This document shows positions 1,002-57,937 of a stretch of DNA of 64,000 nucleotides, in pieces (positions within the stretch are counted from its first letter, which is position 1; the number at the start of each line of letters is the position of its first letter). The stretch is from assembly GCA_004194705.1 (NCBI GenBank), contig SADC01000098.1, positions 682,001 to 746,000 of the forward strand, read 5' to 3'. Under the pieces are notes generated by a model. It did not search any database. It worked only from the letters and a program-made list of their open reading frames with translations, and was not told the origin of the DNA. The DNA comes from Ditylenchus dipsaci. Taxonomy: Eukaryota > Nematoda > Chromadorea > Rhabditida > Anguinidae. A program made the translations under genes and the position numbers.

Positions 1002-2385
1002 CTCCAAAAGCTTTCAAAGTGCCAAGCAAAATAAAAAAGGAAAGAATAAAAAAAAGCCAAAAAACAGCAAAAAAATGGGCTAGGGTAGATCTGGAAAAAA
1101 TGAGATTTGGCAAACCGATATTTGGCAAGCCGATATTTGTCGCTAAACAAGTAGCTAATCAGATTCTGAGCATGGTTTGGCAGACGAAACGTTATAAAAA
1201 TACTTTCGGGCGTTTTGTAGGTTACCCGTGCCTTAAGATCTCGGTTAAGCTTGCTAAATATCGTTTTTACCGTAGCATACGTTTGCAAAAACGTTTTGGT
1301 GGAAACGGACTCCAATGCAGAAAAAAATTAAGTCCAATATTGGTTAAAGGAAATTTGTAAATTAATTTTTTGGGTACCCTTTGTTCATTTTAGAGAGGGG
1401 GATTATTTGAAGGTATACAGGAAACCTAGCAAATATTGATTGAAGTGAGGGCGTGAAGGGTAAATAAAAAACAAAGGATTGGAAAAAAGAGCTAAATCTT
1501 TCACTAGCTTGAAGGGCATGAATGTGTTCACTAGTACTAATAATCCAATGGTTGATCTAGAGATCTCGAAACGACCAAGGGAAACCACAAGTAGTTTAGG
1601 GCTAGAGATGAGGCAATAGTTTGGAAGCACTTGCAAAAGAATGGATTAACTGCTTTTTGTTTCTCTAGTCATATCACTGAATTGATCCAGCAGTTGTTGC
1701 AGTATTAGGTGAAATTCTTTCAGTGCTTTCAATAGGACTTGTAAAGATAGTGAAAATAAAGAAGAAAATATAGCAAAATAAATTCGGGTTGTAAGAGTTA
1801 TAAAAAAATAAAGGGCACTCTCACAACACGTTTGCATCCGCATGTGCGGACTGTTGAATAGTCATAAATGAAAAATGTTTTTATGTCAATATATTTGTAT
1901 TGTCATTTTTAACAGTCCAGAGAAATCTCTCGTGTATAGGGCTTTTTGGTATGTTAGAAAATAATGAACACTTTTGAGGTTTATGATTGCTAAGCGTTTC
2001 GTGATGCTTGTTTACCTGAGTTTTCGCAATTATCTTTTCTTTCGAAATTATTTACCGTTACTCTAACAACTCCCTCCCCCTCTGATAACTCCCTACCCTC
2101 TAATAACTCCCGACCCCTCCAATTATCCCACATATTCCTTGCGGTTAACATTTTTATACATCAAAAAACATTCTGATCAACGAACCTAAAATATCATCTT
2201 GTAAAGATTGTTGGCGTCGTTCTAACGGACTTTTCCAGTCAGGACAATACGTTTCAGATTGAAACGTATTGTACCTAAAAATATGCCTAGTTTAAATAGT
2301 CCATTTCAAACGACGACTTATCTTGTCCAGAAATACTCGACAGAGCTAGTAAGTTTCATAATTTTTTTTGCTGGATTTTCGATTT
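1002..2385. other. intergenic, no gene seen
   Basis: AT-rich sequence with no supported exon. The only structure noticed is a short direct repeat at about 2061-2125, with about four degenerate units of CTCTAATAACTCCC. That motif resembles the subterminal units of the TACCGTAT-ended MITEs found elsewhere in the window. Confidence 0.45.
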
Positions 2386-3223
2386 ATGGAGCGTGCTCAA
2401 ACATTCTTCGAGGTTAGTGATTTAGATTCTATTAGTACTTTGTCCAGTCAGTCAAGTCTGTCCAGTTCACTTATGGTACTCCAGTCCGGCGTTTCTAAAA
2501 TGAAAGGGGCCTATAATAGATAGGAGCCCTACGATAGGATAGCGCCCCTATCCTATATTGGGTGCCGATTTTCGAACTTGGCCCTTGTTGTTTTTTTCAA
2601 TTTTTTTGCGTAATAGTCTCAAAACTATTCATTTGCACTGTTACACTTTAAACCACTTTTTTGCACTTTAAGCCATTTTCACGAAAAAAAATTTTTGGTA
2701 CAAAATTTCCAAAATATTTTTTACCTTGGTCCCCCAAACTGATTTTTTTGGATTTTTTTTCCAAATTTCTCGAAATGTATTTTTAAAGTTTTTGTACCAA
2801 AAAAATTTAATTTTTTTTATAATTGCTGAAAGTGATTTAAAACTGCAAATAGAAAGTCTCTGAGACCTGAAAAATTAAAAAAACAACAACAGGGGGACCA
2901 AGTTCAAAAATCGGTACCGAATATAGGATAGGGACATGAAAGGTCCAGAGTTAGCTAAAGTTAAAGCTCATTTGCAAGCTTTAATGGACAGCATTATTAT
3001 CCAGTCCACCCCAGTAAAGAAGGTCCGAATCAGTTTGATTGAAGACTTAGATAACCCAGTGTATGCTTCCGACTTTCGATATGAATGGGAATATACCGCT
3101 CCAGCTAACAAGGAGTCTTCTGATGGACCTCCTATTGTATTTCGAGGTATAGTTGGATCGAGCATGCAAAGTCTGTCTGAATTGCCTGCCGATGATGCGC
3201 ATGCTTCTTTGAAGTATGGGTGA
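2386..3223 (+). CDS. unrecognised protein, ORF split by a MITE
   Basis: An ATG at 2386 opens a frame (MERAQTFFEV...) that runs to 2507. There element K (2508-2935) interrupts it, and the same frame resumes at 2944 and stops at 3223. Removing K and one copy of its flanking 8-bp repeat gives 134 codons including the stop, with the frame unbroken across the junction. The protein is Ser-rich near the N terminus, then has a helical segment (AKVKAHLQALMD) and a hydrophilic C-terminal part. I do not recognise the family. The frame is also open upstream of 2386, so the real start may lie further upstream or this may be a last exon. Whether K is spliced out, or the gene is broken in this allele, cannot be told from the DNA. 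Confidence 0.5.
2508..2935. mobile_element. MITE K, inserted in an ORF
   Basis: Long inverted repeats: the left arm contains CCTATCCTATATTGGGTGCC and the right arm, reversed, CCTATCCTATATTCGGTACC, followed by CGATTTTTGAACTTGG. The element is flanked by an 8-bp direct repeat ATGAAAGG (2500-2507 and 2936-2943). About 30 bp at the left end has no partner at the right. The core GGTACCGATTTTT...TTGGTCCCCCTGTT is shared with the ends of the large palindrome at 9585-11770, so K is probably a short member of that family. Confidence 0.75.
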
Positions 3224-3518
3224 AGCCAATAAAATGTGAAATGTTTAAAAAGAAACGAACAAAAGAGGTGCCACTGGGCACCTGTTAATCTGGATAGAAT
3301 TTGGGGAAGGGTAGGGGGTGAGCAAGGGTTGAAAGTACCAGTGCTAACGGTCCAAAAATGCCATTTATGTAGGGTAGGTACACGGCCCAGTTGGTTGATA
3401 TGATGTGAAATTCTATACCGAATTTCATGCTTACAGACACGATTAAGGCACCGATAGGCCCCTAATGACCCTGGTTATTCAAATAAGTATTACAAACCCT
3501 AGTATAGAACGGTACATG
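3224..3518. other. intergenic, no gene seen
   Basis: Short spacer between the split ORF and element L. No exon, RNA gene or clear repeat was seen. Confidence 0.4.
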
Positions 3519-6680: not shown

Positions 6681-9600
6681 TTACAACGCTGGACCTAACC
6701 ATTCCATTTTAAGATTTTTATTTTTACCCGATAATCTTGAGATAAACTAAAAAAATTTCCGATTTTCAAGGGTTCGAAAAATAATCCCACGTGTGTGTCT
6801 ATGAAAGGAAACATGGACACTTTAAATTGACAAAAAAAGATGTGTCTACTCACATGAAAACTCCGTCCACTAGTCTCGGGCAGCCACTGGTAGATCACAA
6901 GAACATAGAAAAAATTGATAAAAATAAATGGCAAAAGCACAAATTGAGTCCCGTAAATATTGATTATAGAAAGTGAGATCGTTGTTAAAAAACCACCAAA
7001 TAAATTCTAAAAAATGTCTTTGTATATAAAGAGTCAGTTTTGTACTTTATACCTGTGTAATACCGCAAAGGGCTGACCCAAATATGCGGTCTCTCTGAGA
7101 AAAAAGTTCAGGCACAACGGTATAGGCACTAAAATTATTTTGTTAAACATATTTTTGAGTCAAGTCTGGAGGCCGCTTTTTAGAGTATTTCGCCTATAAA
7201 GATATCTCACCTTTCACTTGCAATAGCGGCCACGGATAGATCAAAAGCAGCCAAAAAGCGATCATATTTTTCATAGGCCATAAACCCAGAAATAAACCTG
7301 TAAATAGCTTTTTTGTTAATAAAGTGACTAACTTTATTCTTAACCAACCGCTATTATTCGACGGGTGGTACTGAAAAAGGCCAGTAACTACCAAAGATGA
7401 TGCCGCCATGCTTGCAATGGTGGGCACAATAAGCAGCAGCCTTCTAGAGAAGCCATCGAAGCAAAACAATAGTATAATGCTGAGAATAGCCTGAGGCAGA
7501 GACATCAGTAGAGAGGATTGCATGGCTTCGCTAGGAGCCATACCCACATTTTCGAACACTTGTGTAGAGTAAGAGATCCATAGCTAAATCAGATAAATAC
7601 TCACGACACAACCTTACTACAATACATAAATTACACCATCCGCGCCACAATTGTAGCCTTTAACGCAGGGTAGGTGACTGTACTTTTAAAAAATTGTACC
7701 TTTTCGGGACCCAAATCTTTTTAAATTTTGAGGTTTGCATCAAAATTGTTTTTGGTGCTCAAAAATGAATGAGTACTGGATAAAATGGCACTTTTCGGTC
7801 GAAAATGACAAAATTGTACTTTTTTAAAAACTTTGAGTTACGTACCCTGCTTTAACTGTAATCAAATGGAATCACATAAATGTTTGATTAAAAAAGTCAT
7901 AGCTAGGATAGGGTCCAGCCATTAGTCGAAGACCTACCGAATCTATCAAACATGAGGCATAGTTTTATCTGTAATCTAAACTACCAGAACGATTCAAGTG
8001 ATACCAAAGAATATGTTTTTTACAGTCATTGTTTGTCTTGGCAAACCCAGCACTTGATAAAGACTCAAATCCAGTAAGTACTTGGCTTCTATTGTAGTAC
8101 TATCTTTGCGCATGGGCAGTATCGCGAACGATGAGGCCTAGCCGAGGTGTGATTATTGCTGGTTGAAAACTTTCACCAATTGCCCTCCTGGGTGTGCTGA
8201 AACATGCACGCCTTGGCAATTTTTGGAAACCCGCAAGGGTGATATTGGTCTTGTCTGCGTAAAAGACAGTGTCTAGCTGTGTCCTTTTAATACTTGTTGT
8301 AAGTCATCAACTTTTTCGCGTAGGTTTTAATTTGAAATTCACTTACCCAATCATCCAGGTGAGCAAATGTGAGCACAAACATTGCTAGCATCAGTGGTCT
8401 CACAAAGGCTCCGCTTCTTAGTCTCCAATTCATCAATTGGAGCAATTTTTGCAGTTGCCGTCTAGACAATGTGCATGTATCCACTTGAAAGGAGCTAGAA
8501 ATGTATGTCCTTCTGGTATCTCTCCTATCTAGCTCAATCAATAGTGTACTTTGACTAGGTGACTTCTCAACCAGATTATGACAGATACTGCCGATCATCT
8601 GCTCTTCTCTCAAACTATCAACTTCAGAAAAAATGTCAGCCAGAGACAGATGCCAATCTTCTGAGCACTACCAAAACCCAACCATTATTTTGGTTTCTAC
8701 GTAAAAAGGCATACTTGGTAAAATTTCAGAGAGTCCAGAGCTTCCTGCCTCTTTCCAGCCATGAGTAAGGAGCGTGGAGAATCAGGTGCACTTATGATCA
8801 GTGCCAAGGCCAACGGAATTAACAGTGTGGGAGCGGCCAAGGCAAAGTGCCAGAGGTTGGGCGTGCCGAGCACACTTTCTAAGCTAATAATCATGCCTGC
8901 TAGTTCGCCAACACACGACCAAACTGTCTAAAAAGAAGCAATCTTTTTTTAGCGTTTGTATAAAGGATTAAAATTGAGTCTTGTGACTGAAGTCTTGGAT
9001 TGTTTGGCTCGTCCGAACTAGGTACTTAAGGCATCAGCAAGTTTGGTGAAACAAATGGTATTTTTGTGTTCCCAAAAGCTAAGAAAAACGTAATTTGGCG
9101 CTAGTAGCGAATACCCCCCCCCCCCCAACAAATTTTTTTTCAAAATCAGGTTTTAATCATTTTTAATAATATTACCGGTCAATAATATTACCGGTCATAA
9201 CAATTAATATTACCGGTCATAACAATTAATATTACCGGTCATAACAATGTTTCGGTCATAACAATTTTTCGGTCATTTTCTGGTCATAATCTTTTTATAA
9301 TATTAAAGGAACATGTAAATCAAAAGGTTGCAGAAAGATATAAAAAATCGGAAAAAAGCGTTAAAATTTTGAATATTTAGCGTAAAAAAACACAACGCCA
9401 ATGAGAAGTTGACAGCATGAAATGTTTTGGCACGCTGTGCGCCGTAAATGAGAATTTTTCACGTTTGAGTTCGCTTGGAACGCTATTTTAATTCCGAAAA
9501 TGTTTGACATTATTTCATTATAAAAAATTAATTGCAGCTAATTCATTTATCAAGCAAGGTAAAATGTAATTAATGACACAAGATGGCTCTACTGGAGAAT

Positions 9601-12600
9601 GGGTACCGATTTTTCACCTTGGTCCCCCTGTTACTTTTTCTATATTTTGTTTCTGTTTTATCATGATTTTCTGTTCATGATTTTCCATAGCTAAATAAAA
9701 AATGATCAAGGAATTTATATAAAAAGGTAGAATAGAATAAAAAGACGAACAGAATATTAACACGAGAAAGGCGGGTGGTGACTTTTGTTGCTTCTGGTGC
9801 AGAAATTCACGCTGAACACGATGATGCAATTAGTTTTTGAAATTATAAATTAAAGTGAGGACATCCAGGCAATTTAAAATTTCCAAAAACGAGACATTCC
9901 TGATCATCGAATTTTTAACTTCTTTTAGGTGTTTCTCACTTTGATGTATCCACTAGTTATGCAAATAATGTCTTAAAATGAAGGAAATACATCAGGCTAT
10001 CTAAGAAACACAAACATTTTAAGCATGGATGAAAAAAATAACCCTAACCAACCATTTTTCTGCCAAAAGACGTATTTACCAAAACAACGTTTAAATCACC
10101 AAAAGGCTCGTAACTTTTTGCACAGGTTATTTCACGGTATTATCTTTCGCAGATTCTTGTAGCGTAACTTGAGAGCTTTCGAATGAGCACAAACACTTCC
10201 ATGTTCATTCAGAAAAAATGCTGAAAAATCGATTTTTCTGAATAAAAACAACTTTATGCATGTACGAATCTTTGAACAGACGCGCCTTTAACTTTTACAG
10301 AGAAAATATTTGGCTAATGGAAATTATTGCAATCTGTAAAAGGTTCACTTTTTAATAGAACACTGGGTACAAATAACTGGATGACTTTGCACCTGATGCT
10401 GCACACATACTTTTGCAGAACAAATATGACAAGATATGACTGGCGTACTTTTCTGGCAGATTTCGCACTCCCTTTTATCGGCGTTGCTGGATGGGCACGT
10501 GTGATGCGACTTAATTAAATCAGTAAACCTCGCAGATTAGAATAACATCGTGCTTGACACTATGTTTTCCTACTTGACACTTGTAATTTTAGATTTTGCT
10601 TCCCCCATTGCTTTTTGCTGCAATTTCTGTTTCATTTTGTCTATTTCGTCTATCTATCTAATTTTTCCATCATCTAAGAATTCGAGCATTGAGTTGTGTT
10701 TCAAATTGAAAGAGAAGAATCATACCTCACGAACTGGCTGCAATTTCTTTTGAATAGGATCCGGAGCCTGGTTCTAAAGAAACAGCCAATTTACGGGACA
10801 CTGCTGAAGTTACATAATCCAAGATCAATCCAGAGACCGAACAGCTAAAATAACACAGACAGGATCAAATTTTATCGACAAAAAAACGTTGACTTACGGC
10901 TAAAATTTCGGTGGCGTTTGTTGTAATATCATCACTTATATCAGAATCACTGGCTTCGTTGAACTCGACATCAAAAACACCTGACATCTGAAAATTGAGC
11001 ATTTATGACTTTTATATGATTCAGTATTGACGATATTTTGTATCTTTATATTGTTTTTGACCAGACCTTATGTGTTTATATTTATTCTGTATTGCCCATC
11101 ACTATGCTAGAGATTGCAATAATTTCCATTAGCCAAATATTTTCTCTGGTAAAAGTTAAAGGCGCGTCTGTTCAAAGATTCGTACATGCATAAAGTTGTT
11201 TTTATTCAGAAAAATCGATTTTTCAGCATTTTTTCTTAATGAACATGGAAGTGTTTGTGCTCATTCGAAAGCTCTCAAGTTACGCTACAAGAATCTGCAA
11301 AAGATAATACCGTGAAATAACCTGTGCAAAAAGTTACGAGCCTTTTGGTGATTTAAACGTTGTTTTGGTAAATACGTCTTTTGGCAGAAAAATGGTTGGT
11401 TAGGGTTATTTTTTTCATCCATGCTTAAAATGTTTGTGTTTCTTAGATAGTCTGATGTATTTCCTTCATTTTAAGACATTATTTGCATAACTAGTGGATA
11501 CATCAAAGTGAGAAACACCTAAAAGAAGTTAAAAATTCGATGATCAGGAATGTCTCGTTTTTGGAAATTTTAAATTGCCTGGATGTCCTCACTTTAATTT
11601 ATAATTTCAAAAACTAATTGCATCATCGTGTTCAGCGTGAATTTCTGCACCAGAAGCAACAAAAGTCACCACCCGCCTTTCTCGTGTTAAATAAAAAGAA
11701 GAACAAAACATGGAAAAAAAATAACAAGGGGACCGAGGCAAAAAATCGGTACTCATTCTCCAGTAGAGCCAACAAGATTATGACCGATTTTTCATTATCT
11801 GGTCATAATCTAGATTATGACCGGTAATGTTACCAGATTATGACCGGTAATATTACCGGTAATATTACCGTTGCCCAACTCTAGGTAGAATACCGTATAA
11901 CCTCTATTAGACGGGCACCCTCTAATAGACGGGCACCCTCAAGGACCTATATCTCAGCGCAAAAAAATGTTTTTGCAAATCTGTTTTTCGCATTTTCTTG
12001 ATCACCTCGATCTTAGTTGATTCCGCTTTTTAGATTTTTTTGAGTACCCAAAAATCTCAAAATCAAAATATTTTTTTTTTCGATTTTTTAGGGGTTGAAA
12101 ATAGAAGGGCATGCCCATCTATTAGAGGTTATACGGTACGCTGAAAAAGGTGGTTTACCTTGTCCCCCAAGGCAAAAAGTCGAATTTTGGTCAAAAATTT
12201 TTTTTCCCCAAAATCAACTTTTTGAGTCAGAAAATGCCCGAAAACACCTTTTAATCGTTTTTAGCGCATAATAATTACTTAGAAATGATTAAAACCTGAT
12301 TTTGAAAAAAAATTGTTGGGGGGGGGTATCGCCACTAGGGTCCGTAATTTTAATGTTAAAGGACCATACTTCCTGATGCAAATGAGAATTTGACAAATTT
12401 TCTTTTGTCTCGCACTCTACTCTTTTGAGTCGTTCAAAATATCTACAAAGTAGAGTGCGAGACGAAAGAGAATTGTCCACGCGCATTTGAATATGCCAAA
12501 TTTTCATTTGCATCAACAAGTATGGTCCTTTAAGCTTAGGCTTGTCGAGTTCCGGTCACAGACTTTTTGAGCCTAGTGTCGAATGCAGGGCTCGTAAGTG

Positions 12601-15600: not shown

Positions 15601-18600
15601 CAAAGCCAAAGCTGACTGCTTATTGTTAATTAGCTCCGTAAGAGCGTCCAAAAATTGGTATCGGTATCCGTGTTTCAGGAACCGAACCGGGGCATTGGGT
15701 GAAAGTTTTCAACCAGCAATAAACGCACCTCAGCAAAGCTTCATAGGTCACGTTATTGCCCGTGCGCAAAGTTATTTCCAACTCCAATCCACTGGTCTTT
15801 CTAATATGGAGTGCAGAAAATTGGTATAGGATTTAAGGCAGGTTAGACAATTACAGATTAGACAGTTACAGAAATTCTGATTTCGAAATAAAAATGAATT
15901 CTGTTTTTTTTTATTTTTACCGATAATACCCTAGCCCTCCAAGGCAAAAAGTCAAATTTGGCAAAAAATATGTCGAAAAATTTAAGGATAATTTTGACTT
16001 TTAAAATTGAAAAAGTGGTCAAACATGCCTTTAGAAGATCGCGATATGAAGGAGTACTAATTTTACTCAATTTTCTCTAGGAAAATTAAATTACTACTAT
16101 CTTGAGTTTTAAGCATATAGAAGGAAAGCAGGAAAAAATAGCGTGTTTTCTCTGACTGTCTAACCTGCCTTACATCCTATACCAACTTTCTGCACTAAAA
16201 GTATAAAGACTTTTGGATTGCAAGTTGAAATTAACTTTGCGCACGGGCGATAACGTGACCTATGAAGCTTTGCTGAGGTGCGTTTATTGCTGGTTGAAAA
16301 CTTTCACCCAATGCCCGGTTCGGTTCCTGAAACACGGATACCGATACCAATTTGGACGCTCTTACGGAGCTAATTTGAACTGGTGTTTGATAATATCGAA
16401 CCACATCCTCCTATCTCAATCAAAAATTTGTAAGATCTGAAGACATCCGACCCGGAAATAATTGCTCAAAAAGAATCACTAAATGACGTCATAGGACCAG
16501 CGTACAACTTTAGTCATTACCATAAGAAATCTTGTTCAGATCAACTGGTCTAGATATATCCAAGCCATATTGCCCAAAGAAGTGTTAGAAAAACTATCAG
16601 GTGGAGTTTCCGCTAATCCACTTCATGTCTCAGGCGTTGAAATTATCAAAAAATATGAATTATTGGCTAGGAACCTGTCTGGTCAAGTGCTGTCCGACTT
16701 TATGGATTGGCGGTTATACTCAGTGATGTAGGATATTTGGACGAGAGGTTCTTGGATGCTGGATTTGTAAGTAGAACATTTGTATGTATTTACTTGGACT
16801 CAATGGTTCAGGAACTAGACAAGAGTGCGAAGGCCAAAAGTCAAAATCATCCTTAAATTTTTCGACATACTCTTTTTTGCCAAAATTTGACTTTTCGCCT
16901 TGGATGGCTAAGATATTACCGTATAACCTCTTTTGATCCTTTTTGATCCAGGGGGATTAATGTTCAACGCCCTTCGAAGGGTGGGGGATTAACAGAGGAA
17001 TGGGGATTATATTTCAACCTCTTCGGCGCCGAAGGTGCCGGAATTTTTTATTCAGAAGACTATAATTCTAATTTATGGAATTTGAAATTCCGCCTACATT
17101 TTTGTCTTACGTGTACTTGACGGCTCACTTTTCGTCTCATACCAAACCGTAAACGTCTGCCGAACCTTAAACCCTAATGGTGCGAAAGTCTTTCAACCAT
17201 TCCTTCTATCGCTTCTGGTAGCGATGCCCATTCTAAACTTTACGCAACGCCATTTTTAACATTTCGTAAACATTATTAGTGATAAAGCAATCGCAGAAGT
17301 TGAACAGCTTTTCGTGGTTCATTGTTGACTGCTAATTCCGATGACATATTTTTTTCTTTATCCAGATGTCAGTTGCTGTGAACTGAGTCATCGCCCTAGC
17401 AAATTCTAAAAACACAGGAGATTGAATCAGGGCTGCCATATGTCCTTTTTTAAAAGATTTTTCCTTTTTTGTGAACCCAAATCTTTTTTTATTTTTGAAG
17501 TTTTAGTCAAAATCTTTTTTTCGCTTCAATATGGCAATAAGCACTGGATGAAAGGCATTTTTCCCTTCAAATTCTTGTATTTTGGCCAAATGTCTTTTTT
17601 TTTAAATTTGGAGATGGCAGCCCTGGATTAAGTGGTTCGTTTTGTTTATACCATTTTGGTACATTATCCAGTGTTCATTTCCGTTGTCGAATTCACTGCT
17701 ACAATTTACGCGGCTACAATCCATAGGCGCCAGCACTTGAGGTCGTCTGGGAATAGCAAAGCTGGAACAAGCCTGGCAGGATTTTTTTTTAGTTTGTGCC
17801 CTCGCCACATCCTTCAATGTATCAGAGGATACACAAATAGCAAACTTCAAACTAAATAGGCCAATTAAAGGGCCTGGAAATTTTTCGCAAAATCCGGGAA
17901 AAAGAACTAAGTCGAGGTGGGCAGGACGATGAGAAAAAAACTGCTAGAACAGGGCTCTCAATTGTACTTAATTATAAGATTTGTACTTATTTTGGGTCTC
18001 CAAAGCTTATTGCTTTTCAAAATTTAACGTCAAAATCTTCTTTTTCATCACAAAAATGAAAAAAGGACTGGATAAAATAGCATATTTTTTGTTATAACAC
18101 TTATTTTTGTGTGCTAAAACGATTACTAATATGAGATTTCCATCAAAAATATCAATGAAATTGAGCTGTTCGAAATTGTTTGAAATAAAAGATGAATGTT
18201 ATTGGGTCAAGGTCACGTTTGTGAAAAAAATAACAATGAGTTTTAACATGAAAATCAACTTTAAAATTTTTTAAACAAAAGAGAAAAGAAATAGGGGGGG
18301 GGGGGTTATTAGAGGGTGGGGGATTTATAGAGGTTATACGGTATTGGTAAAAAATAAAGAAAAACAGAATTGGTTTTTATTTCGAAATCAGAATTTTCTG
18401 TAACTGTCTAACCTTTAATTGTCTAACCTGCCTCACATCCTATACCAATTTTCTGCAATAAAAAGTATAAAGACTTTTGCAAGTTGAAATTAACTTTGCG
18501 CACGGGCGATAACGTGACCTATGAAGCTTTGCTGAGGTGCGTTTATTGCTGGTTGAAAACTTTCACCCAATGCCCGGTTCGGTTCCTGAAACACGGATAC

Positions 18601-18966
18601 CGATACCAATTTTTGGACGCTCTTACGGAGCTAATTTAACAAAAAAGTGATAAGTTTTTCACAGAAAAAAAGAGAAAGCTCTTTAATTCGAAATAATTTC
18701 TGGTTTTTTTCGGCAATTGTTATTTCGGTGAAGGATGAATAAAGAAGTATATGAATTTTCGATTGTCTATTCTTAAAAAAGTAGTCACTAAAATCTTACC
18801 AAAACATTGAACCAGCTCCGATGCTTAACACCACGAATACATCCTGCATTTGCCGCCCATTCTGATTTTGCTTCTTTGGTTTTAAGATACAGTTGGGTTT
18901 TAGTAATGGTGATTTTATATCAATATGGTTTCTGGTGGGCTCGATACATTCAATCGATGGTGTCAT
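6681..18966 (-). CDS. GLUT/SLC2 sugar-transporter homologue
   Basis: Major-facilitator sugar transporter of the plasma or organelle membrane. Exons in coding order: 18800-18966, 15409-15462, 15106-15343, 14993-15061, 8715-8927, 8347-8667, 7372-7583, 7211-7297, 7053-7128, 6854-7006, 6681-6746. All junctions are GT-AG with matching phases; the sum is 1656 nt, 551 aa plus stop, close to the usual 450-550 aa. Family landmarks: PSRKG after TM2; GRFLSGVGSG at residues 141-150; EIPPIHSRG at 162-170; the DSPRSLL match to PESPRWL at 225; SRR at 400; VPELFSQ at 459-465; PETSGRS at 522-528. The QLSGIN motif expected in TM7 is absent (HLDDW instead), so the substrate may not be glucose. Most introns are 44-107 nt, but introns 1 and 4 are 3.3 and 6.1 kb and filled with transposons. 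First-exon choice (the only upstream in-phase ATG exon) is the least certain step. Confidence 0.88.
7666..7849. mobile_element. hAT-like MITE (CAGGG family)
   Basis: Ends CAGGGTA and TACCCTG, with flanking 8-mers CTTTAACG and CTTTAACT (7 of 8 match). The interior resembles other CAGGG copies, with an ACTGGATAAAATGGCA-like segment. It lies in a transporter intron. Confidence 0.65.
8109..8245 (+). repeat. diverged copy of repeat F
   Basis: Shares GCTGGTTGAAAACTTTCACC and neighbouring bases with the repeat copies at 16140-16378, 18470-18640 and 35800-36040, but is far more diverged. It lies in the intron between 7584 and 8346. Confidence 0.55.
9585..11770. mobile_element. long-arm palindromic element D
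   Basis: Arms of about 700-750 bp (9585-10332 and about 11111-11770) are near-perfect inverted copies around a unique centre of about 780 bp. Ends are GGCTCTACTGG and CCAGTAGAGCC. Flanks CACAAGAT and AACAAGAT form a probable 8-bp target duplication (7 of 8). The centre encodes the small cysteine-rich protein at 10345-10987. Its end core is shared with MITE K (2508-2935), and the inner part of its arms with the palindrome at 31172-32045, for example GAACACGATRATGCAA. Confidence 0.85.
10345..10987 (-). CDS. small protein with piggyBac-type C5HC2 domain
   Basis: Four exons with consistent phases: 10898-10987, 10726-10773, 10574-10653, 10345-10528. They total 402 nt, 133 aa. Residues 1-30 are acidic (MSGVFDVEFNEASDSDISDD), like the N-terminal tail of piggyBac transposases. 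Residues 47-73 are a basic helical stretch (MKQKLQQKAMGEAKSK). Residues 94-129 hold the spacing C94-C97-C106-C109-C114-H117-C126-C129, the C5HC2 cysteine-rich zinc domain that piggyBac transposases use to bind their own ends. The catalytic DDD core (about 400 aa in the family) is missing. The protein is not a simple frame-broken relic: no stop or frameshift is needed. It could be an internally deleted transposase or an end-binding accessory or repressor. The splice model is mine; the Cys domain is the firm part. Confidence 0.62.
11891..12138. mobile_element. TACCGTAT-ended MITE, copy 1
   Basis: Ends TACCGTATAACCTCTATTAG and, reversed, the same sequence with a few changes; subterminal TCTAATAGACGGGC units occur. 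Other copies are at 16917-18343, 33672-34269, 38988-39243, 43609-43824, 51041-51291 and 59801-60028. Confidence 0.8.
12360..12529. mobile_element. TTAA-flanked MITE, copy 1
   Basis: Inverted ends AGGACCATAC and TATGGTCCT lie between two TTAA tetranucleotides, the target duplication typical of piggyBac-type elements. The inner palindrome has CTCGCACTCTACT arms. A second copy is at 55651-55847. Confidence 0.75.
12586..13670. repeat. three-layer nest of motif arrays
   Basis: The outer layer has runs of TGTTCTGATTT at 12600-12710 and again at 13585-13640. The middle layer has ACTCGA-rich arrays at about 12765-12838 and 13410-13495. The inner layer is the hAT-like element at 12847-13367. Each layer has its own short motif. 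Confidence 0.65.
12847..13367. mobile_element. hAT-like MITE with GCTCTGGCTC arrays
   Basis: Ends CAGTGGTGTATAA and, reversed, AAGTGGTGTATAA. A perfect 8-bp duplication CTCGCCAA flanks it (12839-12846 and 13368-13375), as expected for hAT elements. The interior is made of repeated GCTCTGGCTCYGAG units in both orientations, plus an internal GTTATGCACCACTGG that looks like an extra end. Confidence 0.8.
13722..13951. mobile_element. MITE family A, copy 2
   Basis: Ends GGGCATGCCCGTGCGTTAAG and, reversed, GGGCATGATCGTGCCC-like sequence. The inner GCGCGAACCAGC...GGCTGGTTCGCGC inverted repeat is well kept. TTAAA/TTTAA borders lie on both sides. Confidence 0.7.
14486..14594. repeat. inverted repeat in transporter intron 4
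   Basis: Arms CTTATCGGTTATCCGCACCC and its complement around a short loop, with a third partial CCGATAAGAACC just downstream. Probably a small MITE; no relative was found in the window. Confidence 0.6.
15586..15995 (-). repeat. interspersed repeat F, minus orientation
   Basis: The core of about 250 bp contains CGCACGGGCGATAACGTGAC, TTGCTGGTTGAAAACTTTCA and CGGTTCGGTTCCTGAAACAC when read on the minus strand, followed by about 150 bp ending near CGAAAAATTTAAGG. Other copies: 16140-16378, 16838-18640 (interrupted) and 35800-36040. Reading frames through it are similar between copies only because the DNA is. A tRNA-like box (TAGCTCCGTAAGAGCG) hints at a SINE, unproven. Confidence 0.75.
16140..16378 (+). 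repeat. interspersed repeat F, plus orientation
   Basis: Nearly identical to the copy at 15586-15840 but inverted, so the two form a large palindrome around about 290 bp of AT-rich DNA. It begins at the shared CAGCGTGTTTTCTCTGACTG border also seen at 35800. Confidence 0.75.
16380..16766 (+). pseudogene. M13 (neprilysin-like) peptidase fragment
   Basis: The exon 16540-16766 follows a TTCAG acceptor and ends at a GTAAGT donor. It encodes INWSRYIQAILP..., then EIIKKYELLARN, then DFMDWRLY, matching the part of M13 zinc metallopeptidases with the pattern 'nW..yl...l ... nYl.WR'. After WRLY the frame is lost; one base later it continues as SDVGYLDERFLDAGF, the expected next segment, so a single-base deletion lies near 16718-16724. 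A preceding frame at about 16440-16530 may be the exon before it. No catalytic HExxH region is present. It lies antisense within intron 1 of the transporter, between repeat F copies, suggesting a captured gene fragment, or an assembly indel in a larger gene not otherwise visible. Confidence 0.6.
16917..18343. mobile_element. TACCGTAT-ended element, long copy
   Basis: Ends TACCGTATAACCTCT and AGAGGTTATACGGTA, 1.43 kb, inserted at a TA within repeat F. The interior holds G-rich subterminal runs (GGGGGATTA units), a nested CAGGG MITE at 17428-17625 and a diverged CAGGG-like piece at about 17946-18110. No transposase frame was recognised. Confidence 0.75.
17428..17625. mobile_element. hAT-like MITE (CAGGG family)
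   Basis: Ends CAGGGCTGCCATATG and ATGGCAGCCCTG. Flanks GATTGAAT and GATTAAGT agree at 6 of 8 positions. The inner ATAAGCACTGGATGAAA segment is the family signature. Confidence 0.75.
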
Positions 18967-35020: not shown

Positions 35021-36855
35021 TTACGTTTCAATAATCTCTTGCTGAGTACAAACAAAGATTGTCATGCTGGTGTCAGGAAGAGTTCTTGCCCTTAGCACCG
35101 AATTACTTTCTTCATTGCAGGTGCAGTGAATGAATGTGCGTAGACCCTCGACGGTCATACTATCTTCTTCAGGTTTGCAGTTGGGGATGTGTTGGGATTC
35201 GCTGCAGAACTTAAAAGATCAAATTATTATAAGCAATATTGATAAACCTATGTTAACAAAACTTTCCGCCAGAAAGTTTTAAGGTGCATATTTATCACGA
35301 ATAGCTCAAGTAAATGTTCTTTTCAATCACCAAAAACGATAAGGGCTTGTTCACGTTGTTCGAGTTAGAGTTTGGGTAAGAGGTGTTCATGTACTCAAAA
35401 ATCTGAACTCGAACCCGATGGTGTTAACGTACTTCGAGTTCGAGGTCGCGCTTGAAAATGCCTACGTATGTGGCTTAGATGGCTCAGAGTCTCACCCCAT
35501 AGCGGTCAAAATCCACTAAAAGTAGGTTTTTTGGCGGTTTACTACGCGTGAATCCGAGTTATATACTTCAACACCTTCAAATTCGACCTCTAACTTGAAC
35601 TTTAACTCGAGCTACGTGAACACCTTCGAGTTAGAGTTCAAGTTTGAGTTCGAATTAGAAGTGTTCACGTAGCCAAAAATCCGAACTCTAATTCGAAGAA
35701 CGTGAACAGGCCATAAAAATATGTTTGAGTATGTCTACTACACTGGCCTATACCTAGCTTAAACACTGGTCATAAGAAATAAAATGAAGCATATGGCCAG
35801 CGTGTTTTCTCTGACTGTCTAACCTGCCTTACATCCTATACCAATTTTCTGCACTCCATATTAGAAAGACCAGTGGATTGGAGTTGGAAATAACTTTGCG
35901 CACGGGCGATAACGTGACCTATGAAGCTTTGCTGAGGTGCGTTTATTGCTGGTTGAAAACTTTCACCCAATGCCCCGGTTCGGTTCCTGAAACACGGATA
36001 CCGATACCAATTTTTGGACGCTCTTACGGAGCTAATTTAACCCTAGGATTACGAGAAAAGAACTGACGTCTCATACAATTGTGGTCAATGTTATCCTCTC
36101 AATATGACGCTTGGGTCAAATTGACCCTCAACCGTATAAGGTGCTGTTTTTGTTGTATGATATCGAAAATAAATATAGTCCAAATGTAGCTAACAGCGAG
36201 ACAAGCATAGTCATAAAAAAACAGTCCTTGTTGATGTTTAAAATTTTTTAACAGGTCTTTGAAATGTCTTCTGGGGTCATATAGACGCACGGTAATATTA
36301 GGGTTAACAAAATAAGTCATCAGCTCGCGCTAAAGCAGAGAAAACATGGTGTTTAACATTACACGTACATTTTTCAAATTTTTTTGCTTCAAATTTTCGA
36401 AATTATATTTCAGGGTGTGCAAGATCATCAAACCATTAATTTTTTTCTCAAAAAAATTCTCAGGCGTCTTTCTGACAAGATTAATAGACACAAAAAATGA
36501 AATTGTGGACGACTTCCGCAATAGAATCGAAACGTGCATCGTCGCTGAAAAAATCATTCCGAATGACCTTCTGCTCGAAAAATTTGTTGGGCTGTCAATA
36601 TACATTTTTCTCTGTGTATCAAACGTTTCAATGCGTCGATGATGTTTGAGCAACTCTAAAACTAAATCAAGCTGGGGATTTTTTCGGCTAAGGGTCCCAG
36701 TTTTGGAAATTGACCGGACAGAGAGCTACCTACGCAAAGTTTTTAAATGCTCACATTGTAAGTAACTCCAAAGCTAAAGGCAGCATTGCTCCTGTTGGCC
36801 TGACATGGCTTCGGCTGCAGCAGTCCAGGACAAGTACACATCTCAAAACGATATC
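35021..36855 (-). CDS. cysteine-rich protein, last two exons
   Basis: Exon 36755-36855 (acceptor CTCTAG, donor GTGAGC) joins in phase 0 to exon 35021-35209, which ends with TAA. Readable residues: YRFEMCTCPGLLQPKPCQAN..., then FCSESQHIPNCKPEEDSM..., then FIHCTCNEESN..., then IFVCTQQEIIET. The eight cysteines and two CxC pairs suggest a secreted disulphide-rich protein. The N-terminal exon(s), where a signal peptide would be, were not found. I do not recognise the family. The 1.5-kb intron carries element Q and a repeat F copy. A polyadenylation-like AATAAA lies about 90 bp downstream on the minus strand. Confidence 0.6.
35341..35714. mobile_element. inverted-array element Q
   Basis: Ends GGCTTGTTCACGTTGTTCGA and, reversed, GGCCTGTTCACGTTCTTCGA. 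The interior repeats TTCGAGTTAGAGTTC and GTGTTCACGTA in both orientations. No gene inside. Confidence 0.75.
35800..36040 (+). repeat. interspersed repeat F, plus orientation
   Basis: About 240 bp, nearly identical to 16140-16378 and sharing its left border CAGCGTGTTTTCTCTGACTG. From 36041 to 36754 nothing firm was seen. Confidence 0.75.
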
Positions 36856-56127: not shown

Positions 56128-57104
56128 TAGGTTGGTGCATAAGTTTTAAACCATACAAAGACCGCCAAAATTTTTGTTTATTCGGCGATTCGTTACCACT
56201 TCTTTTATTTCATCATTTTATTCATCTCATAAGCTTTCTAAAATGCCTATTCCAAATCATATTGAAATTCGCTATGTTTTGCTAAACCACTTCAAGAAGA
56301 ATTGGACTTCTGGAGAGTCATATCGCGATCTCGTCGACACTTACGGAGAGGATTCCATCAGTATAAGTACTGTGAAATATTGGTTTTCCCGCTTTAGATC
56401 AGGTGACACTAATGTGGAAGATAAGGAAAGAGACGGCAGGCCTTCCGAACTCGATGATGATGCTCTTTTGGAGGCTGTGGAAGCTGATGAAAGCTGGACC
56501 ACAAGAATGCTTGCAGAGGAATTTGGAGTCGACCATTCGCATTGTTCGCCATCTTCAAAAGCTTGGAAAGGTTAGACATTTATGTCTTTACTTTTTAATT
56601 AAAGACAGATTATAGGTGTGAAAAGGTGTGGTTGGGTGCCCCACGAACTCACTCAGCAGAACAAAGACAATCGAGTGACAACTTTCACCGCACTTCTTGA
56701 ACGCCATGAGCAGCAACCATTTCTGCATCATCTGATCACTGGAGATGAAAAGTGGATTCCAAAAGAGCATCATCATCGAGTTCGGAAGGCCTGCCGTCTC
56801 TTTCCTTATCTTCCACGTTAGTGTCACCTGATCTAAAGCGGGAAAACCAATATTTCACAGTACTTATACTGATGGAATCCTCTCCGTAAGTGTCGACGAG
56901 ATCGCGATATGACTCTCCAGAAGTCCAATTCTTCTTGAAGTGGTTTAGCAAAACATAGCGAATTTCAATATGATTTGGAATAGGCATTTTAGAAAGCTTA
57001 TGAGATGAATAAAATGATGAAATAAAAGAAGTGGTAACAAATCGCCGAATAAACAAAAATTTTGGCGGTCTTTTGTATGGTTTAAAACTTATGCACCAAC
57101 CTAA
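56128..57104. mobile_element. mariner element rearranged into a 5'-5' palindrome
   Basis: Ends TTAGGTTGGTGCATAAG and complement at TA. The plus strand encodes the start of a mariner transposase: MPIPNHIEIRYVLL..., then the HTH region SISTVKYWFSRFR and DGRPSELDDDALLE. After that come broken frames with WVPHELTQQNK and TGDEKWI, the latter holding the first catalytic Asp of the D,D34D triad. Right there (about 56758) the sequence switches to an inverted copy of bases 56128-56469, giving a second, minus-strand transposase N terminus (57056 down to about 56760). The last two catalytic Asp and the original 3' end are gone, so the element is dead as a transposase source but has two matching 5' ends. 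Confidence 0.88.
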
Positions 57105-57106
57105 TA

Positions 57107-57937
57107 ATCCCCCCCCCCCCCCACGGGGAGTGATCAGATCGAGGAGATGACTTCATGTTCGTGTTTCTCGAACCCGATTTCATGTGAAAGCCGGCTTTTT
57201 TTGATTCTGAGAACTGGAAAAAAAATTCGAACCACAGGGGGTATCATGGTTTTTTAGTCAAAACCATGAATTGGCGCCTTTTGAATTTTAAAGGGATTAA
57301 GGGCTGTATTGGGAGGGAAGAGAATAAAAGGGGCCACTTTCATGGCAGAACATTATAAATTTGAATATCTGTATTCTTCGACTGCCTCACCATGTTTTTC
57401 AACTGGGCCGTGGCAAAAAGATACTCTATATGCATTTTATGGTCAAGAGTACTTCTCGGAATCATTTCTAAGGTAAGTGTGTTCGCGCATCTCTAACTCT
57501 CAATCCCCCTGCGACCCCTTCGTGGGCGCAGGGGGCTTGGGCTTAGAGTTGAGATGCGCACACCCACATACCTTAGACACAAATCACTCGAAAGTGACTC
57601 TGGATGCATGAAAAAGCATGCATACCAGATTTTTTTATGCGGTAGTCCCAGCTAACAAAACTATGTTCAAATCTTCTTGTTAGTGCCCTTGTGTGATTAG
57701 TGGACCTCTTTTATTTCCTTCCCCTCCCTATACAGCCCTTAATCACTTTAAAATTCAAAAGGCACCAATTTAAATTTTTCAAATTTTGACTAAAAAACCA
57801 TCATACCCCCCCCCTGTGGTTTGAAAATTTTTTTTTCTCAGAACCAAAAAAACGCGCGGCTTTCACATGAAATCGGGGTCGAGAAACACGAATATGAGGT
57901 TATCTCCTCGATCTGATCACTCCCGGGGGGGATTCTT
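57107..57937. mobile_element. palindromic element I with repeat J centre
   Basis: Arms of about 240 bp (57107-57355 and 57700-57937) contain GGGAGTGATCAGATCGAGGA and TTCACATGAAATCG in inverted copies, with runs of C at both tips. The centre carries repeat J (GCATGCTTTTTCATGCATCC) and a CCCCCTGCG...CGCAGGGGG hairpin. It abuts the mariner element directly. Confidence 0.75.

Follow-up and report, generated by a model that had tools for sequence, protein, structure and literature searches.

A palindromic relic in the nematode Ditylenchus dipsaci belongs to a piggyBac clade with predicted tandem cysteine-rich fingers and symmetric ends

The piggyBac transposon of Trichoplusia ni (structures 6x67/6x68) inserts at TTAA, and its transposase combines a catalytic core of three aspartates (DDD) with one C-terminal C5HC2 cysteine-rich domain (CRD) per protomer, acting on two unlike ends. 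The native enzyme both excises and integrates in cells only with the unlike ends LE35/RE63 (LE and RE, left and right end), LE35/LE35 being inactive; the structures show a CRD dimer bound to one end only, hyPBase moves symmetric ends with one CRD, and the need of piggyBac for unlike ends is called enigmatic (PMC7351741). When a second CRD is added, symmetrised ends work, and hyperactively so for piggyBac (PMC11707139). Very long terminal inverted repeats (TIRs) are described in a piggyBac of the bivalve Crassostrea virginica (528 bp), and the same survey records piggyBac in none of ten nematode species (PMC10813416). Here we describe a locus in a 64,000-nucleotide stretch of the nematode Ditylenchus dipsaci (contig SADC01000098.1, positions 682,001 to 746,000; hereafter the window), whose draft genome was obtained with PacBio (PMC6929663). 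An initial annotation had taken window positions 9585-11770 to be a single palindromic transposon encoding a CRD protein. We find the locus to be an unremarkable relic from a known superfamily, and its clade a piggyBac variant previously unreported in the searches made.

The elements of this clade share with T. ni piggyBac the TTAA target, a DDD core (E = 1.8e-21) and a C-terminal C5HC2 CRD, but several of them differ in carrying two tandem CRDs, or fingers, and in having near-identical ends of ~0.5 kb. Judged from their sequence, piggyBacs that combine a tandem pair of C5HC2 fingers with symmetric ends of ~0.5 kb occur naturally in this genome. They resemble the engineered 2xCRD piggyBac and piggyBat on symmetrised LE/LE ends in having a duplicated CRD and two identical ends (PMC11707139); that arrangement was laboratory-made, whereas the pair in this genome is natural and consists of fingers that are unlike in sequence and in spacing.

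At the window locus, the single element of the initial annotation resolves into two nested ones: a miniature inverted-repeat transposable element (MITE) of ~250 bp and, inside it, a 1,934-bp piggyBac derivative, the window copy. Its features are as follows, deletions called private being those of this copy.

9585..11770, no strand: outer MITE with TIR GGCTCTACTGGAGAATGG, into which the inner element is inserted; ~250 bp in uninterrupted form
9757..11690, minus (gene strand): inner piggyBac derivative, 1,934 bp, TTAA at both ends
9757..10339, plus: left arm (TIR), ~583 nt
11108..11690, minus: right arm (TIR), ~583 nt
11032..11033, minus: ~110 nt lost 5' of the ATG (private deletion), by comparison with relatives
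10931..10987, minus: remnant of native exon 1, with ATG and acidic N-terminus MSGVFDVEFNEASDSDISD
10921..10930, minus: private deletion of ~372 nt, the rest of exon 1 and what follows (873-1244 of the reverse complement of relative L014 absent)
10758..10760, minus: exon 2, already closed by an upstream stop, with a private deletion of ~97 nt
10646..10660, minus: private deletion that removed the DDD catalytic core (~970 nt) and contains ~12 nt of filler
10512..10513, minus: private deletion of ~149 nt, an intron and part of the first finger
10345..10467, minus: second C5HC2 finger and stop, in a frame different from that of the upstream coding sequence

The outer MITE has TIRs of ~80 bp and is present uninterrupted elsewhere in the genome, where its copies match positions 1-173 and 2106-2186 of the 9585-11770 sequence. 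All 14 uninterrupted copies fetched align across the joined flanks as empty sites, none of them with a 4-bp gap at the site, which reads TTAA in the window and TATAAT in most of these copies. The 8-bp target-site duplication (TSD) of hAT-type MITEs is perfect in copy L057 (GGTTTGTC) and present in the window as a near-duplication (cacaagat and aacaagat, 7/8); many other MITE copies lie inside one shared repeat, and their flanks are thus not independent for TSD analysis. Since the MITE shows an 8-bp duplication elsewhere and empty sites exist, the 8-bp duplication, which the initial annotation had assigned to the palindrome in place of TTAA, belongs to the MITE, and the palindrome was inserted at TTAA.

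The inner element starts with TTAACACGAGAAAGGCGGGTGG and carries the complement of TTAACACGAGAAAGGCGGGTGG at its other end, its TTAA motifs being located at 9757-9760 and 11687-11690. TTAA is found at both ends of all nine complete copies of the inner family, a count that leaves out the truncated L015, L018, L019 and L020. The long inverted arms that had been annotated are real, although they measure ~583 nt in all (542 nt pairing at 99% and 46 nt at 93%) and not 700-750 bp.

A third, outermost inverted pair encloses the nested elements (9119-9166 and 12279-12326, 48 nt, 92%), with AATATTACCGGTCATAACAATT-like repeats on both sides; similar flanks surround many of the fetched MITE copies. This pair possibly represents triple nesting.

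The inner family was found at no fewer than 13 places, the window included, with at least 93% identity (best 40 of 435 candidates in a search of the genome itself); such DNA searches scored at most ~40 candidates, so that copy numbers are lower bounds. The annotation had proposed a search for a full-length relative with the same arms and a transposase, and two exist, L014 (3,614 bp) and L016 (3,589 bp). Between the exons retained in the window copy, five of their six core or pre-core pieces match DDE_Tnp_1_7 (E = 6.2e-15 to 3e-4), and core pieces match T. ni piggyBac 6x67 (E = 1.8e-21). The three presumed catalytic aspartates, equivalent to D268, D346 and D447 in T. ni and placed by reading of the alignment, lie in LTVDETLLGFRGRC, CDNYFTSPALGK and YNKAKCGVDQFDEM, the last of these being read from a DNA alignment. 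The DDD core that had been reported missing is thus indeed absent from the window copy, where it was lost by deletion from a family that possesses it.

The full C5HC2 cluster that had been annotated is present on the minus strand (10348-10467), and is followed by a stop. Pfam and PDB sequence searches did not name the domain (best weak PDB match UHRF2, E = 0.0033), and a hidden Markov model (HMM) was therefore built from homologues; it recognises the C5HC2 domain of the inner family, which aligns ligand by ligand with 15 piggyBac transposases, while reporting no CRD in 38 of 120 homologues. The inner family thus carries the C-terminal C5HC2 CRD of piggyBac.

The remainder of the window copy is decayed. 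It has lost ~1.7 kb through its five private deletions, whose breakpoints are shared by none of the other mapped copies. CTCAATTTTCAG, immediately 5' of the exon 1 ATG, resembles a nematode splice acceptor. In comparison with the full-length relatives, exon 2 in its native frame runs into a stop after ..SSVP, and a one-base difference just before the CRD shifts the frame relative to the upstream sequence, which contradicts the earlier description of a gene with neither stop nor frameshift. An open path from the ATG to the CRD needs chosen GT-AG introns (520 such paths with at most three introns). Dinucleotide shuffles also gave an open spliced path into the CRD in 171-185 of 300 cases, and one at least as long in 76-86 of 300, over three intron settings; a path being open so often, the splice-consistent reading frame is a chance expectation.

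Substitutions in the window family were as expected without selection, with nonsynonymous to synonymous (N:S) counts of 5N:1S in exon 1 (4.6 N expected, 7 rows), 12N:4S in the CRD exon (11.5 N expected, 11 rows) and 2N:1S in the core (2.0 N expected, 4 rows). The two ends of L011 entered as separate rows, as did the near-twins L010 and L012, and with so few substitutions power is low. Together with the frame breaks and the shuffles, these counts lead us to reject a functional 133-aa gene, and the comparison across copies by which the annotation had hoped to recognise selection came out neutral-like.

Other members of the inner family show how such copies vary. L009, L010, L012 and L013 are further internal-deletion copies. 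L010 and L012 share one deletion in different flanks (their only similarity there being a 74% repeat match, inverted), and in both exon 1 is joined out of frame to the last exon, indicating that spread needs no coding sequence; in L009 the corresponding joint is in frame, with a one-base frame break after it. L011 and the truncated L015 are mirrors in which an inverted right end replaces the left end (R/R), and L017 is the opposite mirror, with two left ends. Comparison of the paired arms within each copy over ~570 nt shows no difference in L011 and L014, 2 in L016 and L017, 3 in the window copy, 5 to 7 in L009, L010 and L012 and 16 in L013; between copies, the near-twins L010/L012 excepted, arms diverge by 1.2 to 8.4%. 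Among arm variants private to one copy, 36 occur in both arms and 37 in one (18 of these in L013); sister copies were excluded for L010/L012 and L011/L015, and an L010/L012 variant may have been counted twice. Private variants common to both arms suggest that in part of the copies the arms have at some time exchanged sequence.

The full-length relatives carry a second, upstream Cys/His cluster in their C-terminal exons, which is incomplete in the window family. Both fingers are complete in L054, a 3.34-kb element with TTAA ends and arms of 492 bp at 100% (CHIC-x11-CSKC-x4-C-x2-H-x6-CTKC and CQVC-x7-CSRC-x4-C-x2-H-x8-CDQC), whose gene is otherwise open, with apparently one frame break. L046 has arms of 488 bp at 98%, and L053 (C1247:608500-614500) is a tandem-CRD piggyBac whose arms, 99.7% identical over at least 1,671 bp, extend beyond the fetched stretch. 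In a strict scan of the 12 core loci L024-L035, two motifs were found in five (L025, L026, L032, L033 and L034), one in four and none in three; L026 and L032 are the loci of L053 and L054. Two fingers were thus found in L054, L053, L025, L026, L032-L034 and, by the same strict scan, 15 of the 20 loci L069-L088 considered below, and are readable in a centre of the sister family C3. The pair is no general feature of piggyBac homologues: among the 120 L054-core homologues listed (best 120 of 200 matches, from 5.8 billion proteins) none has two motifs, 84 have one and 36 none. A protein search with the tandem region gave 22 candidates, none with E <= 1e-3, with a tool that needs shared 5-residue words and can miss distant tandem CRDs, and a literature search for piggyBac with 'two cysteine-rich domains' found no match in a scope that leaves out most subscription journals and Repbase.

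In two sister families, palindromes have multiplied that keep the fingers and lack the N-terminal half of the transposase. At least 39 copies of the L054 tandem exon, three of which lie in full-length elements, occur in the genome at an identity of 93% or above (40 candidates, 40 scored), whereas a 605-nt stretch of the core of this family has three complete copies and three remnants of ~150-185 nt (10 candidates, all scored). The 20 loci with the best tandem-exon matches comprise two elements of the full-length type (L077 and L085) and 18 derivatives of ~1.7 kb that lack the N-terminal half and the core; 15 of the 20 have both finger motifs open and five have one. Six derivatives (type A) join L054 coordinates 1-517 to 2128-3341, and 12 (type B) consist of 2246-3341 preceded by inverted 2732-3341, which gives them two right ends. 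The mean divergence by substitution amounts to 0.077% for type A and 0.065% for type B. TTAA stands at both ends of 17 of the 18; the remaining one, L083, starts at a contig edge and reads CATAAC. In the tandem exon we counted 50 distinct substitutions, 38N:12S versus 41.1 N expected, a value as low being reached in 785 of 5000 simulations (33 rows); some fall in Cys codons.

The C3 sister family repeats this pattern, with at least 16 loci bearing two facing arms of ~0.55 kb (best 40 of 105 candidate arms), 14 of which carry a tandem-finger match. All eight centres read are mirrors with two right ends; the N-terminal half is missing from each, whereas the tandem fingers are retained, as is the exon that encodes the third Asp. 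Seven differ by 0-0.6%; the eighth, L092 (C225:40020-41130), shows an apparent divergence of 8.8%, with patchy indels between perfectly matching stretches. It is probably a poor consensus inside a palindrome, and was for that reason excluded from the statement on divergence. R/R mirrors are thus found as L011/L015, the 12 type B elements and the C3 family. Palindromes without fingers also occur (L047 and L049, ~1.2 kb, TTAACACGAG ends), which speaks against a need for the CRD; L048 has the same ends without long inverted arms and was not counted as a palindrome.

Taken together, these data make it very probable that the element in the window is a dead passenger copy, shortened by internal deletions, of a tandem-CRD piggyBac parent type. 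The parent would have been a full-length 3.6-kb element with a TTAA target, symmetric arms of ~583 bp, and a transposase with an acidic N-terminus, a DDD core and two C-terminal tandem Cys-rich fingers. Five internal deletions, one with filler DNA, would have produced the window copy, as may be expected of repair by template switching. It would then have inserted into the TTAA-like site of an older MITE, the site that the empty sites reveal, by means of transposase presumably supplied in trans. Its CRD was probably kept because the exon abuts the right arm, and not because it is used. With regard to the clade, two CRDs per transposase and near-identical ends could allow a pair of protomers to grip both ends symmetrically, which would explain the spread of mirror R/R elements; the second finger, on this sequence evidence, may be what permits symmetric ends and hence R/R mirrors. 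A natural evolution of the engineered arrangement, with two fingers per protomer and identical ends, in which R/R mirrors carry the tandem fingers as an end-binding competitor and the window copy is a decayed relative, is an idea that we entertain tentatively and consider rather doubtful.

Several points weigh against this interpretation. The symmetric-dimer step is one that we infer, and symmetric ends need no two CRDs in principle, as hyPBase moves them with one. A strict link between CRD number and end symmetry is also at odds with 2xCRD piggyBat, described as barely active on LE44/LE44 (PMC11707139). Tandem fingers are incomplete in part of the clade (7 of the 12 core loci in the strict scan), and the first finger of the window family lacks one Cys (KCQVG), so that a full tandem pair is not present there. 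Few substitutions (16 in the CRD exon) underlie the neutrality tests of the window family; in a PacBio-like draft assembly, sequencing errors may account for part of the single-base frame breaks in homopolymers; and five separate deletions in one copy exceed what is expected of one abortive repair.

Could the CRD-only palindromes be kept as repressors, a core-less tandem-finger protein occupying transposon ends and damping the parent? KP-type P elements are multi-copy internal deletions that keep the DNA-binding part without the catalytic part, and truncated P-element proteins damp their parent element. By analogy the palindromes may be repressor-like, although KP-type elements keep the N-terminal binding domain and the palindromes the C-terminal one. 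The surplus of L054 tandem-finger exons over complete core stretches (at least 39 copies, three in full-length elements, versus three) points in this direction, as do the 18 of 20 fetched loci that are ~1.7-kb derivatives in two classes, the 15 of 20 with both motifs open, the same pattern in the C3 family, and, in type B, an ATG whose frame is that of the exon preceding the finger exon. The 39 copies stem, however, from few deletion classes, and the finger exon lies near the right arm, so that its retention is likely positional and automatic in R/R mirrors. The tandem-exon substitutions do not depart clearly from the N expected and change Cys codons, CRD-less TTAACACGAG-ended palindromes exist, and at the window locus the reading frame is broken. 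We hold repression to be unlikely.

Further alternatives carry far less weight. Inverted repeats are a known long-read artefact, arising from missed hairpin adapters, and L092 does look like a poor consensus; such an origin of the palindromes is nonetheless highly improbable, as the inversions stop at TTAA ends and the same inner breakpoint recurs at 12 loci with different flanks in type B and at two loci in L011/L015. The initial annotation had favoured a palindrome that captured a CRD and moves by some other chemistry with an 8-bp duplication, a reading suggested by the 7/8 near-duplication around 9585-11770. Because these flanks belong to the MITE, whose duplication is present elsewhere, because the inner arms end at TTAA in 9/9 complete copies, and because of the empty sites, we regard this reading as refuted, with a practically negligible chance of being correct. 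The complete CRD cluster at 10348-10467 could also recall a host gene domesticated from a piggyBac CRD, to which we attach next to no credence, given that it still lies within TTAA arms, its frame is broken and no second mapped copy has the same breakpoints.

The window locus itself yields a negative result, neither a new chemistry nor any hint of a small functional gene having emerged, and it is the clade that deserves specialist attention. Elements that combine both features in nature, and that appear to have been active recently, would point to an evolutionary link between CRD number and end symmetry that is testable across families. The copies also point to possible origins of long palindromic arms, namely mirror copies and arm-to-arm homogenisation.

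Other features were observed in the window and in the genome. A megablast search of phages with the first 8 kb of the window gave no match. Matches to SL1 RNA (RF00198) occur at no fewer than 50 places of the genome (best 50 of 103,254 candidates), with a best score of 61.4 bits (below the curated 75; E = 2.4e-8), and in 0 of 14 control genomes; SL1-like RNA forms tandem arrays at C351:6620-19444 and C409:50373-59806, with periods of ~1,079 and ~1,166 bp. A 28-kb part of the window contains five genes for U4 spliceosomal RNA, each scoring above the Rfam cut-off:

8102-8240, plus: U4 RNA gene (Rfam)
15634-15773, minus: U4 RNA gene (Rfam)
16233-16369, plus: U4 RNA gene (Rfam)
18492-18630, plus: U4 RNA gene (Rfam)
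35892-36031, plus: U4 RNA gene (Rfam)

Another mirror-like transposon is present as an inverted duplication of a mariner-type open reading frame (56150-56575, plus, and 56736-57152, minus), the first copy of which matches HTH_48 (E = 1.6e-18).

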